Positions 5,194 through 50,743 of a stretch of DNA of 64,000 bases are shown one piece after another. Source of the stretch: Caldanaerobius polysaccharolyticus DSM 13641. Lineage in GTDB: Bacteria > Bacillota > Thermoanaerobacteria > Thermoanaerobacterales > Caldanaerobiaceae. The stretch spans positions 66,857 to 130,856 of the forward strand of contig NZ_KE386494.1 of NCBI RefSeq assembly GCF_000427425.1, read 5' to 3'. A model generated the notes under the pieces. That model was not told the origin of the DNA and ran no database searches. It saw nothing but the letters and a program-made list of their open reading frames with translations. The position numbers and the translations under genes are program-made. Each line of letters begins with the position of its first letter. Position 1 is the stretch's first letter.

Positions 5194-5726
5194 ATATCGC
5201 AAATAAACTGACTTTATTTCGCATCATTATATTGCCTTTTTTTATGGTGTTTGCTCTTGCCAAATTTAAATACAGTGCTATTATAGCTGTTCTCATATTT
5301 TTAGTAGCGTCATTGACAGATCTATTTGATGGTTACATTGCTAGAAAGATAAACCAGACGACCAAATGGGGAAAACTTATGGATCCCCTGGCTGATAAAT
5401 TGCTCATATCTACAGCGTTGATATCTTTAGTAGAAGCTGGCAGTGTACCTGCGTGGGCAGCGATAATTATAATAGGGAGGGAATTTGCAGTTACGGGCCT
5501 GAGATCTCTGGCCGCTGTAGAAAATATAGTCATCTCTGCAAATAATGCTGGAAAGATAAAAATGGTGGCACAGATCGTAGCCATAACAGCATTGCTATTA
5601 AAAATTCCTTTTGCATCTATCGCTCTGTACATTGCAGTGATAATAACAGTACTCTCAGGTTATAACTACTTTCGCCATTACTCTTTTGTCATAAATGAGA
5701 TAGGGGGAAAGAAGGATGAAATGTGA
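5190..5726 (+). CDS. pgsA: CDP-diacylglycerol--glycerol-3-phosphate 3-phosphatidyltransferase
   Basis: This membrane enzyme makes phosphatidylglycerol phosphate, the first committed step of phosphatidylglycerol and cardiolipin synthesis. The 178-residue protein has several membrane helices. It carries the CDP-alcohol phosphotransferase motif DG..AR........G...D...D, seen as DGYIARKINQTTKWGKLMD followed by PLADK. The start overlaps the rimO stop by four bases and the end overlaps cinA by eleven, so translation of all three is probably coupled. The order rimO-pgsA-cinA-recA is common in Firmicutes. Confidence 0.93.
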   Translation: MNIANKLTLFRIIILPFFMVFALAKFKYSAIIAVLIFLVASLTDLFDGYIARKINQTTKWGKLMDPLADKLLISTALISLVEAGSVPAWAAIIIIGREFAVTGLRSLAAVENIVISANNAGKIKMVAQIVAITALLLKIPFASIALYIAVIITVLSGYNYFRHYSFVINEIGGKKDEM

Positions 5727-6942
5727 AATTATCTCAGTGGGAACTGAATTGTTGTTAGGTCAAATCGCCAATACAGACGCTCAATATATTTCACAGCAGC
5801 TAGCACCCTTGGGTATTGACGTGTATTTTCATACGGCCGTGGGAGATAACAGCGATAGATTGAAAGAATGCCTTGAAATCGCCTGGCGTCGTTCCGATGC
5901 GATTATAACCACAGGAGGTTTAGGCCCCACGCTGGATGACCTTACAAAGGAGACTATAGCTGATTTTCTAGGATTAAAAATGGTGAAATACCAGCAGGCT
6001 TATGACCATTTAAAACAGTACTTTAAGGGGAGAGAGATAACCCAAAACAATTATAGACAGGTGTATTTCCCTGAGAACTCGATTTTATTACCCAACAATA
6101 ACGGTACCGCATTGGGCTGCATTGTGGAAAAAGACAATAAAGTCATAATCATTTTGCCTGGTCCTCCCAACGAATTAATACCCATGTTCCAAGAGAGCGT
6201 TATACCTTACCTAAGGTCAAAAAGCGATTACGTGATTAAGTCCAAAGTGTTACGGTTATTTGGGATAGGCGAATCAAAAGTAGAGGAGATGCTGAAAGAC
6301 ATTATTGTCAATCAATCCAATCCTACAATAGCTCCTCTGGCCAAAGAAGGCGAAGTTACCTTGAGGATAACGGCTAAAGGCAAAGATCAAGTTATAATCG
6401 ACAGAATGATAAAAGATATGGAAGACCGGGTGAGAAGTGTTGTGGGCGAATGGATTTATGGTGTGGATGACGATTCCTTGGAATCGGTGGTAGGAAGGCT
6501 GCTGATGGAAAAAGGTATCACCATATCCCTGGCAGAGTCATGCACAGGAGGTCTTATGTCCCATAAGCTCACAAACATACCGGGTATATCGTCGGTTTTT
6601 AAATTAGGAGCGGTGGTGTACAGCAATGAAGCAAAAGAAGATATTTTAGGAGTAAATCCAACCACGATAAAAGAAAAAGGCGCTGTAAGCCGCGAGACAG
6701 CTATACAGATGGCAGAAGGTGCAAGGCTTACAGGCAAAACCGACTTAGGCCTTGCGGTTACTGGTATAGCAGGTCCTGGAGGAGGAACTTCGTCAAAACC
6801 CGTAGGATTAGTATATATAGCATTATCTGACGGCAAGAACATTGTGTGCAACGAATATCATTTTAATAGCAACAGGCAGAAAAATAAAAACCTCACGTCA
6901 ATGCATGCATTAGATATGATAAGGCGGTATTTGATTGATTAA
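5716..6942 (+). CDS. cinA: CinA, nicotinamide-nucleotide amidohydrolase / competence-damage protein
   Basis: The 408-residue protein has two domains. An N-terminal MoaB/MogA-like domain (EIISVGTELLLGQI, TTGGLGPTLDD, LPGPPNEL) acts as a COG1058 ADP-ribose pyrophosphatase in studied relatives. A C-terminal CinA domain (SLAESCTGGL, VTGIAGPGGG) deamidates nicotinamide mononucleotide in pyridine-nucleotide salvage. The start is ATG 5716, preceded by AGGGGGAAAGAAGG and lying inside the end of pgsA. It lies just upstream of recA, as in many Gram-positive bacteria where cinA-recA are co-transcribed. Confidence 0.93.
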   Translation: MKCEIISVGTELLLGQIANTDAQYISQQLAPLGIDVYFHTAVGDNSDRLKECLEIAWRRSDAIITTGGLGPTLDDLTKETIADFLGLKMVKYQQAYDHLKQYFKGREITQNNYRQVYFPENSILLPNNNGTALGCIVEKDNKVIIILPGPPNELIPMFQESVIPYLRSKSDYVIKSKVLRLFGIGESKVEEMLKDIIVNQSNPTIAPLAKEGEVTLRITAKGKDQVIIDRMIKDMEDRVRSVVGEWIYGVDDDSLESVVGRLLMEKGITISLAESCTGGLMSHKLTNIPGISSVFKLGAVVYSNEAKEDILGVNPTTIKEKGAVSRETAIQMAEGARLTGKTDLGLAVTGIAGPGGGTSSKPVGLVYIALSDGKNIVCNEYHFNSNRQKNKNLTSMHALDMIRRYLID

Positions 6943-28307: not shown

Positions 28308-28342
28308 ATTTTTGTAAAGTCACAAAGCATTTAAAATACTTT

Positions 28343-28430
28343 GATGCTTCCCTACGCAGGCATTATCCTGACAGGTTCAAGGGTCGGGAACGAGTCCCCT
28401 CTCAGCCTCACACGAAGCTCCCCTAGCATC
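28343..28430 (-). ncRNA. TPP riboswitch (THI element)
   Basis: On the - strand the outer P1 stem pairs GATGCT (28425-28430) with AGCATC (28343-28348). Inside are the conserved GGCTGAGAGG core motif, the GACCCTTGAACCTG segment and GGATAATGCCTGCG, as in TPP aptamers. It controls thiD-cytX-thiM. Confidence 0.97.
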
Positions 28431-28452
28431 CTCTTATTTAGTTTCTAAATAC

Positions 28453-38478: not shown

Positions 38479-40287
38479 TCATTTAGAAGCATGAATCTTA
38501 TACAGAGCTGCTACACCATAACCATCCATGCATATCTGCGGCGGAATATTGGTTCCATCGCCTTCTACAGGAAATCCGCTCCAAACTGAGGTGTTTACGG
38601 TGTAAAAATCTGCTGGCCTATACATGAGACCGATCATAGGAACGTCCTGGAGGTAAATCTTATTGAGCTTTGTCCACGCTTCTTTTAGCTGCGCTTGATC
38701 GGTAATAGTCGGGATCTGACTGAGCAGATTGTCGACCTCCGGATTCTTGTAGCGGCCGTAGTTGCGAAATGCGGTTTCCCCAACAGGAGGCACTCCTTGA
38801 GAGCTCATAGCTTGATATGCACGCATCCACGGAGAGGAAATACCCACGCCTTGATATGAGTACATAGCCATGTCGAATTTCCCTGTCTGCAAATCATTAA
38901 TCCACACTGATTGCTGCGGGAAATATGTCTGCACATCAATTCCTATCGCTTTGCTGGACGATGCAACAATTTCCAAAGCTGCATTCCAATCAGACCAGCC
39001 AGATGGGCACTCAACCTTGAAGGAAAGCTTGTGGCCATTTAAAACCCTGATTCCATCAGGGCCTTTTTTGGCTCCTATAGAGTCGAGCAAAGCGTTAGCG
39101 CCTGCTATATCATTGGATTTCCATTGCAGGCTGGCGATTTGATTTTGATCGATCAGTTTCTGTTCCGGATCCGTTGGAAGCATTAAAGACGGTGACATTT
39201 TTTGCGAATAGCCGCTCATGGCATTTGCAGCAATTTTATCATAATCAATGGCCATAGCAATGGCTCTGCGTACATTGGGATTGTCAAGGCCTGGCTTTGT
39301 CGTATTGATGACAAGCCATGGGATTACACCAGGTACATAATAAGGCGGCTTAGATAGATAAGTTTTTACATTAGGTCCAAACGTCTGGATATTTGGTGTA
39401 AACTGCTGAGAAACGTCAACCTGATTCTGCCTAAGCGCGGTGTCGCCAGCCGCATTGTCTTTAAATATGTTATGAACTATATACTTTGGTGCCGGCAACT
39501 TGCCCCACATAGAAGGTGACTTTCCCCAGTAGTTATCATCCCTTATGAGAACGATTTTACTATCGTCATAATAGAATACTTTATATGGTCCAGATCCAAC
39601 CGGGTCTTTGTTGACCTCGTTTGAAATCTTTGTGAAATCGTTATTGTCGTTTTGCTCGATCGTCGTCCATACGTGCTTAGGCAAAATGTAAACTGATTCC
39701 AGTGCCTCCTCCACCATCAGCGGGTTTTTGTTTGTACTCTTCACTTTAAACTCAACGGTGTAATCGTCTTTCGCTGTAACGCTATCGAGGTACTCCCAAT
39801 AGCTTGACCAGTTGACAGGGTACTTCTTGCCTAATTCAAATGTGTATACAACATCTTCGGCCGTTACAGGCTTGCCGTCATTCCAATGGGCATCTTTGTT
39901 TAACGTTACTGTGCAAGTGGTATTATCAGACGACCATGAATACTTGGTCCCAAGGAGCGGATACATCTTACCATCGAGTTGATTATACATAAACAGTGTC
40001 TCATAAGTAAGCTCACGGGCTATACTCCCTGACGCGATAGGAAAACTTGCTGGATTAGCATTCAGAGGATTAAAGTTGGTTGGAGCCCCCCATTGCAGGC
40101 CACTGATATAAAGCGTCTCGTTTCTAGGAGTAGGCTGACCGGGTTTAACTGCTTTATCAGATGAAACACTGTTGCTGGTCTTATTGCTTGTCGTTTTGCT
40201 CGAAGTTTCTTTGCTTTTGCAACCAGCAACCAACAACGCTATAATGCTAAACACGAGGATAAAGCTAATAACCTTTTTTAGCTTCAT
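38479..40287 (-). CDS. Family 5 extracellular solute-binding lipoprotein
   Basis: The 602-residue lipoprotein has signal IALLVAGC and a Ser/Thr/Lys-rich linker. The SBP_bac_5 fold is seen in RELTYETLFMYNQLDGKMYP, KDAHWNDGKPVTAEDVVYTF and NPNVRRAIAMAIDYDKI. This family binds peptides or, in thermophilic anaerobes, often oligosaccharides; the substrate cannot be told here. ATG 40287 has a correctly spaced AGGG site; ATG 40293 abuts it. It is the first gene of its operon, under a conserved upstream element at 40463-40534. Confidence 0.9.
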   Translation of the reverse strand: MKLKKVISFILVFSIIALLVAGCKSKETSSKTTSNKTSNSVSSDKAVKPGQPTPRNETLYISGLQWGAPTNFNPLNANPASFPIASGSIARELTYETLFMYNQLDGKMYPLLGTKYSWSSDNTTCTVTLNKDAHWNDGKPVTAEDVVYTFELGKKYPVNWSSYWEYLDSVTAKDDYTVEFKVKSTNKNPLMVEEALESVYILPKHVWTTIEQNDNNDFTKISNEVNKDPVGSGPYKVFYYDDSKIVLIRDDNYWGKSPSMWGKLPAPKYIVHNIFKDNAAGDTALRQNQVDVSQQFTPNIQTFGPNVKTYLSKPPYYVPGVIPWLVINTTKPGLDNPNVRRAIAMAIDYDKIAANAMSGYSQKMSPSLMLPTDPEQKLIDQNQIASLQWKSNDIAGANALLDSIGAKKGPDGIRVLNGHKLSFKVECPSGWSDWNAALEIVASSSKAIGIDVQTYFPQQSVWINDLQTGKFDMAMYSYQGVGISSPWMRAYQAMSSQGVPPVGETAFRNYGRYKNPEVDNLLSQIPTITDQAQLKEAWTKLNKIYLQDVPMIGLMYRPADFYTVNTSVWSGFPVEGDGTNIPPQICMDGYGVAALYKIHASK

Positions 40288-40447
40288 GTTCATCCCTCTC
40301 TCATTATTTTTGTGCAAAAACCACATTAAACACCCATCCGCCACAATGACTGAACGCTGATTGCCTTAATTTATCACCACCTTTCCTAAAACCTTTTAAA
40401 TAAATTCTTATTACAGTAAATTATATATACAAACGCCTCTAAATATT

Positions 40448-40476
40448 ACTTTAGTCTTCCAAAAAAACATTTTCAA
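40448..40476 (-). promoter_or_regulatory. Predicted promoter of the family 5 ABC operon
   Basis: On the - strand, TTGAAA (40471-40476), 17-base spacer, TAAAGT (40448-40453). The -35 lies at the end of the repeated upstream element, giving a leader of about 155 bases. Confidence 0.5.
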
Positions 40477-40534
40477 AGTCTGAATTCAATCAAATTCAGC
40501 CAAATTCATTGAATATTCGCCGTTTTTTTTTTTT
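40463..40534 (-). repeat. Conserved upstream regulatory element, copy 1 (four phased units)
   Basis: On the - strand: a run of twelve A, CGGC, then GAATATTCAAT, GAATTTGGCT, GAATTTGATT, GAATTCAGAC at 10-11 base steps, then TTTGAAAATGTTTTT. The same arrangement occurs at 50569-50631. It lies upstream of the binding-protein gene. The remaining bases of the 40288-40672 gap hold only the terminator at 40597. Confidence 0.75.
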
Positions 40535-40596
40535 CTGAATCTTTCTCATTCTTCCTTGCCTTTTCTTCTTTTATCATTTCTAGCAACAAAAAACAA

Positions 40597-48886: not shown

Positions 48887-50230
48887 TTATTTTTTATTTT
48901 TTCGCAGTTCATCTGCTGCCGCTTTCAATGCCTGTTCTGGTGTGGCTTTATTAGTTCTTAAAACTTTATATAATACCTGATTTGCCAATAAATCATTGGC
49001 CGTAGGATTCAATTCAGTACTTCTCAATGAAGTAACATTACCTTTTGTAGACGACAAAAGAATCTTGAATATATCTTTTCCGTTGACAAAATACTGAGTA
49101 TATTTATTGTCTCCAGGATTATTAGCAAGTTGTTCCCATACATCCCAACGCGGAGGATCAAAACCTAATACATTCCATATCTCAAGATTGGCTTCTTGTG
49201 TTCCCTTAGCAAAGTACAAAAATTTCTTTGCCAACTCCACATTTTTTCCTTGTAATGGCACTACAGTTCCTGTACCTCCAAGACCAATCGTAGGATATTT
49301 GTTGCCGTCTTTCCAAACGGGAACTGGGGCTACAAGTACTTTACCCTTCAAATCTGGCATATAACTTACAAACCTACTCATATACCAGAAAGGCATTATT
49401 ACTGACGCTACATTTCCTTTATCAATCCATCCATAAGACTGCTCGGTATCAACTTGTCCTCCTGGAGCAACAACAGCTATCTGATCTTTATATATCATGT
49501 CATGCATAAATTGTAATGTTTTCACATTGACATCGCTATCTAAAATAACGTTACCATTTTCATCAAATATATCTGACCCTTGCTGTCCAATCATTGTATC
49601 AAATTCCCACATTGCAGTCTGAGAAAGAGCTACCATTGGCTTTCCTGTTTTGGCTTTAACAATTTTACCTGCTGCCACGAAATCATCCCATGTTACTATT
49701 TTACTAGGATCAATTCCTGCTTTGTCGAGAAGCTCTTTGTTGTAAAATGCCATTACACTGCCTCCATGGGTTGGCATTCCATAGAGCTTACCATCTTTGC
49801 TGTAAATTTGCAAGCGGGACTGTATAAATTTGTCCTTGTCACTTTGCACAAGATCAGTTAAATCCGCCAATTGCGGTGTACCTTTTAAGAATTGTGGGAA
49901 TCTACCAATTTCCACATCAGCGATATCCGGTGCACCTACTCCTGATTGTAGTGCCACTAACAACTTATTGTGCATATCTTCATAAGGATAAGTAACTGCT
50001 TTCAATTCTATAGGTTGATCAGGATGCTCCTTATTCCACCTTTTAGCAGCATCATTATAAAGCTGCGCATGTAAACCTACAAAAGTCCATAAAGTTAATT
50101 TAGTAGGTCCTTTACTTTCACTACTGCCTCCTTGTTTAGTTGCTTGCGTCGAACCCTTCTGTCCGCAACCAGCTAATACTATCATTGACAATATAGAAAA
50201 AATGAGCACTATACTTAAAAACTTTTTCAT
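48887..50230 (-). CDS. Family 1 sugar-binding lipoprotein (arabino-oligosaccharide importer)
   Basis: The 447-residue lipoprotein has signal LSMIVLAGCGQK and the SBP_bac_1 fold (GKLYGMPTHGGSVMAFYNKE, DDFVAAGKIVKAKTGKPM). Operon with MalF/MalG permeases and GH51 points to arabinose-containing oligosaccharides; this is inference. The upstream 50231-50789 gap carries AraR-like boxes and a conserved element. Confidence 0.9.
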   Translation of the reverse strand: MKKFLSIVLIFSILSMIVLAGCGQKGSTQATKQGGSSESKGPTKLTLWTFVGLHAQLYNDAAKRWNKEHPDQPIELKAVTYPYEDMHNKLLVALQSGVGAPDIADVEIGRFPQFLKGTPQLADLTDLVQSDKDKFIQSRLQIYSKDGKLYGMPTHGGSVMAFYNKELLDKAGIDPSKIVTWDDFVAAGKIVKAKTGKPMVALSQTAMWEFDTMIGQQGSDIFDENGNVILDSDVNVKTLQFMHDMIYKDQIAVVAPGGQVDTEQSYGWIDKGNVASVIMPFWYMSRFVSYMPDLKGKVLVAPVPVWKDGNKYPTIGLGGTGTVVPLQGKNVELAKKFLYFAKGTQEANLEIWNVLGFDPPRWDVWEQLANNPGDNKYTQYFVNGKDIFKILLSSTKGNVTSLRSTELNPTANDLLANQVLYKVLRTNKATPEQALKAAADELRKNKK

Positions 50231-50493: not shown

Positions 50494-50534
50494 TATACGT
50501 ACGTCTTACAAACAAAATTTAAGATGTACGTATA
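50494..50534. promoter_or_regulatory. Paired AraR-like operators
   Basis: TATACGTACGTCTTA (50494-50508) and TAAGATGTACGTATA (50520-50534) form an inverted repeat with one mismatch. The TACGTA centres are 31 bases apart, about three helical turns. They lie downstream of the conserved element and upstream of the arabino-oligosaccharide operon. Confidence 0.55.
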
Positions 50535-50553
50535 TCTCTCATCTCTCCTTTTT

Positions 50554-50582
50554 AGGATACTTCTTTATAAAAACATTTTCAA
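50554..50582 (-). promoter_or_regulatory. Predicted promoter of the arabino-oligosaccharide operon
   Basis: On the - strand, TTGAAA (50577-50582), 17-base spacer, TATCCT (50554-50559). The -35 lies at the same place in the conserved element as in copy 1. The leader would be about 320 bases. Confidence 0.4.
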
Positions 50583-50631
50583 AGTCCAAATTCGGCCAAA
50601 TTAATCGAATATTCGCCGTTTTTTTTTTTTT
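50569..50631 (-). repeat. Conserved upstream regulatory element, copy 2 (three phased units)
   Basis: On the - strand: a run of thirteen A, CGGC, then GAATATTCGAT, TAATTTGGCC, GAATTTGGAC, then TTTGAAAATGTTTTT. It matches copy 1 at 40463-40534 but lacks exactly one 10-base unit. Confidence 0.75.
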
Positions 50632-50743
50632 CAGAATATTGCTCGCGATTTCTCATTTTTCCTTCATTTTTCTTTTATATGCGCGTTTTGATTTACGGTA
50701 AAAGATATCAAAAAATTTTATGAACCTGAGCGCATATAAGGTG

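Follow-up and report, generated by a model that had tools for sequence, protein, structure and literature searches.

The main finding of this study is that a promoter cassette of about 130 bases stands ahead of about 28 distinct operon loci, mostly sugar-importer operons, in the genome of Caldanaerobius polysaccharolyticus (G000; 2,499,862 bases), with two copies in the window, i.e., the whole stretch of 64,000 nucleotides analysed here. We read this cassette as a genus-specific sigma-A promoter module that is the common promoter of nutrient-importer operons, with one common regulator on a helically phased array and local sugar-specific repressors downstream, a reading to which we assign a probability of roughly 0.55. 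An earlier note had singled out the two copies and proposed a regulon linking two uptake systems; a regulon-like set of uptake operons is what the genome search returned, although it comprises about 28 loci rather than two. The note knew of no described match, and our literature searches likewise gave no description of the motif, while its exact pattern had no match across 84,980 named genomes, a set that possibly leaves out its own and near genomes. The module looks like a previously undescribed motif, specific to the genus, and a promoter family of a known general kind.

Both copies sit on the minus strand where they had been placed, with the runs of 12 and 13 adenines ascribed to them (Table 1). 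The CGGCGAATATTC block is exact at 40511-40522 (copy 1) and 50607-50618 (copy 2), and so is GACTTTGAAAATGTTTTT at 40463-40480 and 50569-50586, for which 0.24 matches are expected by chance. The distance from the CGGC block to the -35 is exactly 10 bp longer in copy 1, and the unit region accounts for the difference, copy 1 belonging to a four-unit class and copy 2 to a three-unit class. The TTGAAA that had been called -35-like is in both copies paired with a -10 at exactly 17 bp, and the phased array extends ~65 bp further upstream than the span first noted. Copy 1 stands upstream of an Opp-type importer operon with a family-5 binding protein, and copy 2 upstream of an operon for a CUT1 sugar importer and an arabinofuranosidase (SBP_bac_1 and Alpha-L-AF_C in Pfam).

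Table 1. Coordinates in the window of the two promoter copies, their parts and the genes that follow them.
Feature	Positions	Strand	Basis
Whole promoter module, copy 1, four-unit class	40446..40593	-	Model R1 match G000:C2:107302-107449, E 7e-21
Copy 1 upstream GAGAAA-type phased array	40535..40593	-	Alignment with 19 other copies; period of 10 bp in this half across the family
Copy 1 poly-A run A12	40523..40534	-	Among the genome's 13 A/T runs of at least 12
Copy 1 CGGCGAATATTC block and AATTTG-type units at 10-bp steps	40481..40522	-	
Copy 1 -35 hexamer TTGAAA	40471..40476	-	
Copy 1 -10 hexamer TAAAGT, 17 bp from -35	40448..40453	-	
Whole promoter module, copy 2, three-unit class	50552..50684	-	Model R1 match G000:C2:117408-117540, E 5.5e-29
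Copy 2 poly-A run A13	50619..50631	-	
Copy 2 CGGCGAATATTC block and AATTTG-type units	50587..50618	-	
Copy 2 -35 hexamer TTGAAA	50577..50582	-	
Copy 2 -10 hexamer TATCCT, 17 bp from -35	50554..50559	-	
AraR-like operator pair (ATATACGTACA ... CGTACGTATA), predicted 5' leader of copy 2	50494..50535	-	Resemblance to the AraR consensus
Operon 1 first gene, family-5 solute-binding protein	38479..40344	-	SBP_bac_5, E 1.7e-66
Operon 2 first gene, family-1 solute-binding protein	48887..50230	-	SBP_bac_1 match

The size of the family was established by searching the whole genome. With copy 1 as query, BLAST gave 22 places below an E-value of 1e-3, one of which is copy 1, and R1, a sequence model derived from 20 copies, gave 32 at E ≤ 0.01. 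Chance is excluded, since E-values in these searches reach 1e-18 when one copy is compared with another and 1e-30 over the family as a whole. The figure of about 28 loci is what is left after merging dependent places (C1:5.8-6.8 kb, C1:8.5 kb, C1:5697 and C1:6530): the first holds two nearly identical stretches flanking a run of N and may be one locus, the copy at C1:8.5 kb is interrupted by N, and those at C1:5697 and C1:6530 are partial. At G000:C1:5560-6960 (L059), the near-identical promoter stretches around the N run have A10 in one and A13 in the other. This pair is probably one locus split by the assembly, the other option being a true duplication; if it is one locus, the two lengths are a hint of A-run length variation, or possibly a sequencing error. 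The same locus has, at 5680-5835, a degenerate half-copy (TATGAA, 17 bp, TATGAT) ~200 bp upstream of the full copy; a hairpin with a T run, resembling a terminator, comes after it, and the arrangement is perhaps that of a tandem promoter whose leader is short. Elsewhere, G001, the only other species of the genus examined, has 13 candidates, with E ≤ 1e-5 for 10, and G016, from another family of the same order, has a single full copy (E 1.8e-13) whose promoter is good. With the R1 model, the element was found at E ≤ 1e-5 in none of 34 other genomes of the class searched. Weak BLAST matches in G011, G028 and G031, to which the R1 model gave no confirmation, were treated as chance, as were matches in G018 and G003 (E ~0.002), which by eye look like coding sequence.

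When the copies are aligned on the -35, a fixed order of parts is apparent: upstream GAGAAA-type units at 10-bp steps, the poly-A run, the CGGCGAATATTC block, AATTTG units, TTGAAA, 17 bp and TAnnnT. TAnnnT lies exactly 17 bp after TTGAAA in 37 of 39 copies checked, a few of them with small -35 variants, and the two exceptions are degenerate G001 copies; the element is thus placed at promoters, as had been supposed. The spacing counts in part as independent evidence, since the query that yielded the first copies stopped short of the -10. Within the -10, the three inner bases are variable, and the start of the spacer (ATGTTTTT) is conserved. Hexamers at this spacing fall within the 16-18 bp of sigma-A (sigma-70 type) promoters, and a sigma-A promoter, with a start site predicted from sequence, is our best reading of the module. 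Similarity between copies ends near -105 to -160 on one side and +20 to +75 on the other, which means that only the promoter region is common and not the genes. A subset of copies (e.g., L078, L080 and L086) has a further common stretch at ~-160 to -200 that reads roughly GTTTGAYATGGGAAYAAAGGYATTTTAAAC and might represent a second promoter upstream. Two other kinds of element were considered and rejected. A terminator on the other strand would need a hairpin, and in most copies the GAATATTC palindrome would not accommodate a loop; a longer hairpin is possible only at G000:C2:762540, so this reading is not general. A riboswitch or other RNA element finds no Rfam match at the element, which lies upstream of the predicted transcription start; the sole match in the window is a TPP riboswitch elsewhere (76 bits, 28332-28434, minus strand).

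A further property of the module is its helical phasing. The AATTTG units lie at -56 and -46, plus -66 in the four-unit class, so that two or three are present at 10-bp steps, and the centres of the A/T cores lie near -43, -53 and -63, plus -73 in the four-unit class. Beyond them lie the CGG/CAG-C block, the A-run at -84 to -72, and GAGAAA-type units that continue to ~-150. There are two length classes exactly 10 bp apart, seven loci, of which two are near-identical, having four units and the others three. One whole turn is the sole length change in the unit region of intact copies, so that the constraint to one face of the helix seen earlier in two copies is real; other spacing occurs only in a degenerate G001 copy (L103, ~one base short). 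The A/T period is 10.0 bp, with p ≤ 0.025 in 29 of 35 copies in per-copy dinucleotide shuffles, copy 1 being among the weak cases in this single-copy test, and median power at 10 bp is 3.00 in the copies versus 0.50 in 33 upstream regions taken from this genome as controls. Strong static curvature was rejected, the rise predicted by the wedge model being modest (median 1.16 vs 1.04).

The same array can be described in two ways, and it is here that the leading rival reading has to be weighed. The A/T-rich sites directly upstream of the -35 at one-turn steps have the form of an UP element or phased A-tract, and the direct half-site copies at 10 bp, with an extra unit of exactly 10 bp, have that of an OmpR/PhoB/ArcA-type array. 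A possible, if less probable, explanation is thus a phased UP element without a dedicated regulator, in which A/T cores and A-run would be contacted by the alpha-CTD and shape the DNA toward the polymerase, so that the promoters would be strong and constitutive, with local repressors as their only control. The core centres lie in alpha-CTD territory just upstream of the -35, their 10-bp periodicity suits such contacts, phased A-boxes and A-tracts have a known effect (PMC4081817 and references), and operators downstream of the -10 would suffice for specificity; the UP-like role that the earlier note gave to the A-tracts is plausible to this extent. However, conservation alternates every 10 bp and is not confined to A/T: C-60, G-50, G-40 and C-37, which lie between the A/T cores, are kept, while their neighbours (-59 to -56, -49 to -47) are variable, as is the inner -10, which speaks for sequence-specific reading. 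Moreover, strength alone leaves the restriction to importer and sugar genes unexplained, and housekeeping genes of the typical, strongly expressed kind are absent from the loci that were read. Both this restriction and the conserved G/C bases favour a sequence-specific protein, and we infer from conservation and phasing that one regulator binds the array, on which regulator and RNA polymerase alpha subunits may both act. The cooperative regulator binding suggested in the earlier note is possible, with contacts by the alpha subunits alone as its rival.

The operons behind the module are united by function. First genes were scanned against Pfam, gene order was read from the fetched loci, and we grouped as two-permease loci those with two adjacent PF00528 permeases (n=31). 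The module heads the operon in 19 of these 31, across unrelated transporter types; among the 19 we count C1:69480, whose operon opens with a YesM/YesN-type two-component pair, and the weaker match at C2:937796 (28 bits), whose operon opens with a LacI-type regulator gene. The module is not obligatory, since the other 12 two-permease operons lack it, and it stands at two of eight PF02653 matches (ribose-type importers, CUT2) and at none of seven single-permease loci. First genes belong to families as different as SBP_bac_1, SBP_bac_5, Peripla_BP_4, ABC ATPase, GH127 and GH67, which indicates that the module tracks function and not gene lineage. Further targets are a GH67 alpha-glucuronidase, a mannitol-dehydrogenase-family oxidoreductase, permease-less binding proteins and a URO-D-like gene, there is no clear target gene at C2:6110, and in G001 the module mostly precedes family-5 binding proteins.

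Just after the -10, the copies split into separate sequence groups. Four of them (C2:117425, which is copy 2, C2:740164, C2:750233 and C3:43525) have in common a palindrome with TACGTACA, resembling the AraR operator consensus, and their operons include an arabinofuranosidase, a GH127 enzyme and a CUT2 importer (Pfam). The fucose operon at C2:331858 and its G001 ortholog (C34), whose proteins are 76-89% identical, have conserved the promoter between the two species and share TATTGAAACGATTyA, a LacI-type sequence. In ~13 to 17 copies, AACTTAATAAAGTT or a close variant lies ~10 bases from the -10, with little variation in this distance. The box seen there (e.g., in L037, L123 and L129) reads AACTTAATAAAGTTTTTTTAAAAAG and is near-palindromic, and the operons that have it include those for a GH67 and for an enzyme of the mannitol-dehydrogenase family. 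Resemblance in sequence, together with gene content, points to a downstream layer of operators for sugar-specific repressors. In the mechanism that we propose, a common putative regulator would bind the helically phased array upstream of the sigma-A core promoter, and a second, sugar-specific repressor with its operator just downstream of the -10 would decide transcription. The local brakes would be AraR-like at arabinose operons, a LacI-like site at the fucose operon and the AACTTAATAAAGTT box at the ~13-17 others, the module acting as a shared 'importers wanted' input to which interchangeable brakes are added.

Part of the conservation may be due to recent copying, as copies in one genome have common ancestry. 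Taken further, this would make the module a promoter repeat spread by copying (a mobile promoter or short non-autonomous element) that is kept by drift or selfish spread, its bias toward transporters being incidental. Many similar copies do precede non-homologous genes, in a distribution limited to the genus apart from the single copy in another family. We nevertheless consider this unlikely, because the copies have no fixed ends, their common borders differing from one to the next as they would not in a transposable or MITE-like element, because conservation is patterned instead of uniform, because an orthologous promoter is retained between two species, and because nearly all copies keep the correct promoter register. 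CodY was tested because both G000, which has the gene with its helix-turn-helix, and G001 possess it and the AATATTCWGAAAA stretch before the A-run resembles its box, but a set of target sites in the CodY regulon is very improbable, since the 12 of 15 matches to AATATTCTGAAAAAA in some copies are for most elements no better than in shuffled copies, positions are inconsistent, a AATTTTCWGAAAATT-like 15-mer is no better than chance at a conserved place, and relatives possess CodY without the element.

Within the shared promoter module, the poly-A run has a peculiar distribution. All 13 A/T runs of at least 12 in the 2.5-Mb genome lie inside the element, as do 17 of the 23 runs of at least 10, the six others being exactly 10 long and at places without the element. 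In the window, runs of 7, 8 and 9 occur 41 times, twice and once, those of 10 and 11 are absent, and the one run of 12 and the one of 13 are those of the two copies. Low-order Markov models from the window lead one to expect ~6 to 26 runs of at least 12 genome-wide; compared with the observed runs, this suggests that long A/T runs are avoided elsewhere and retained inside the element. Four of the five runs of at least 12 in G001 are likewise in elements or element candidates. The fifth, A30 at G001:C48:2308-2337 (L227), is preceded by a similar AGAATATTC and has no promoter match of this family, and in other genera of the order runs of at least 12 occur at places where the R1 model finds no element. 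A pure run is not essential, being interrupted by G in many G001 copies and in weaker G000 copies, and its length is free to vary, the longest pure run ranging from 5 to 20 across copies. It is conceivable, though doubtful, that the run is a mutable tuning device, in which length change by slipped-strand mispairing would alter the position of the upstream array with respect to the core promoter and give each importer operon a heritable, reversible setting, with the population bet-hedging over nutrients.

If true, one conserved module before unrelated importers would mean that much of food uptake is coordinated at one common step, sugar specificity being added by separate downstream repressors. 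The module is also a defined bait for finding the putative global regulator, its one-turn spacing variants are a natural series for testing helical phasing, and its poly-A runs offer a testable case of genome-wide homopolymer tuning.

Comparison with known systems highlights similarities and differences. In Caldicellulosiruptor bescii, AraR and LacI-type repressors bind in the leaders or over the promoters of sugar importer operons (PMC8579813), which parallels the local repressors proposed here, although that network is described as one of mostly local regulators (PMC8579813) and the module was found in none of 13 class-mate genomes of a neighbouring family, inferred to be Caldicellulosiruptor and its kin. 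This parallel, together with the operator groups, leads us to see in the module a shared promoter that combines a common upstream input with interchangeable local operators. In the T-tract rheostat of Helicobacter pylori sabA (PMC4081817), too, a homopolymer that varies in length separates phased A-boxes upstream from the core promoter, but that case concerns one gene and a run adjoining the -35, whereas here ~17 copies have runs of 10-14 that are three to four turns away from it. UP elements and phased A-tract promoters (PMC4081817 and references) share the one-turn A/T cores directly upstream of the -35; unlike these, the module has conserved G/C positions, one functional class of operons and two discrete length classes. 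Finally, OmpR/PhoB-type arrays, exemplified by E. coli ArcA, which controls carbon metabolism globally and recognizes two to five tandem direct repeats at 11-bp steps (PMC3798270), likewise place a variable number of one-turn direct repeats in promoters. The module differs from them in sequence, in its 10-bp step and in a regulator that is putative, and its array is much longer and more conserved, with a poly-A run and a fixed distance to the -35.
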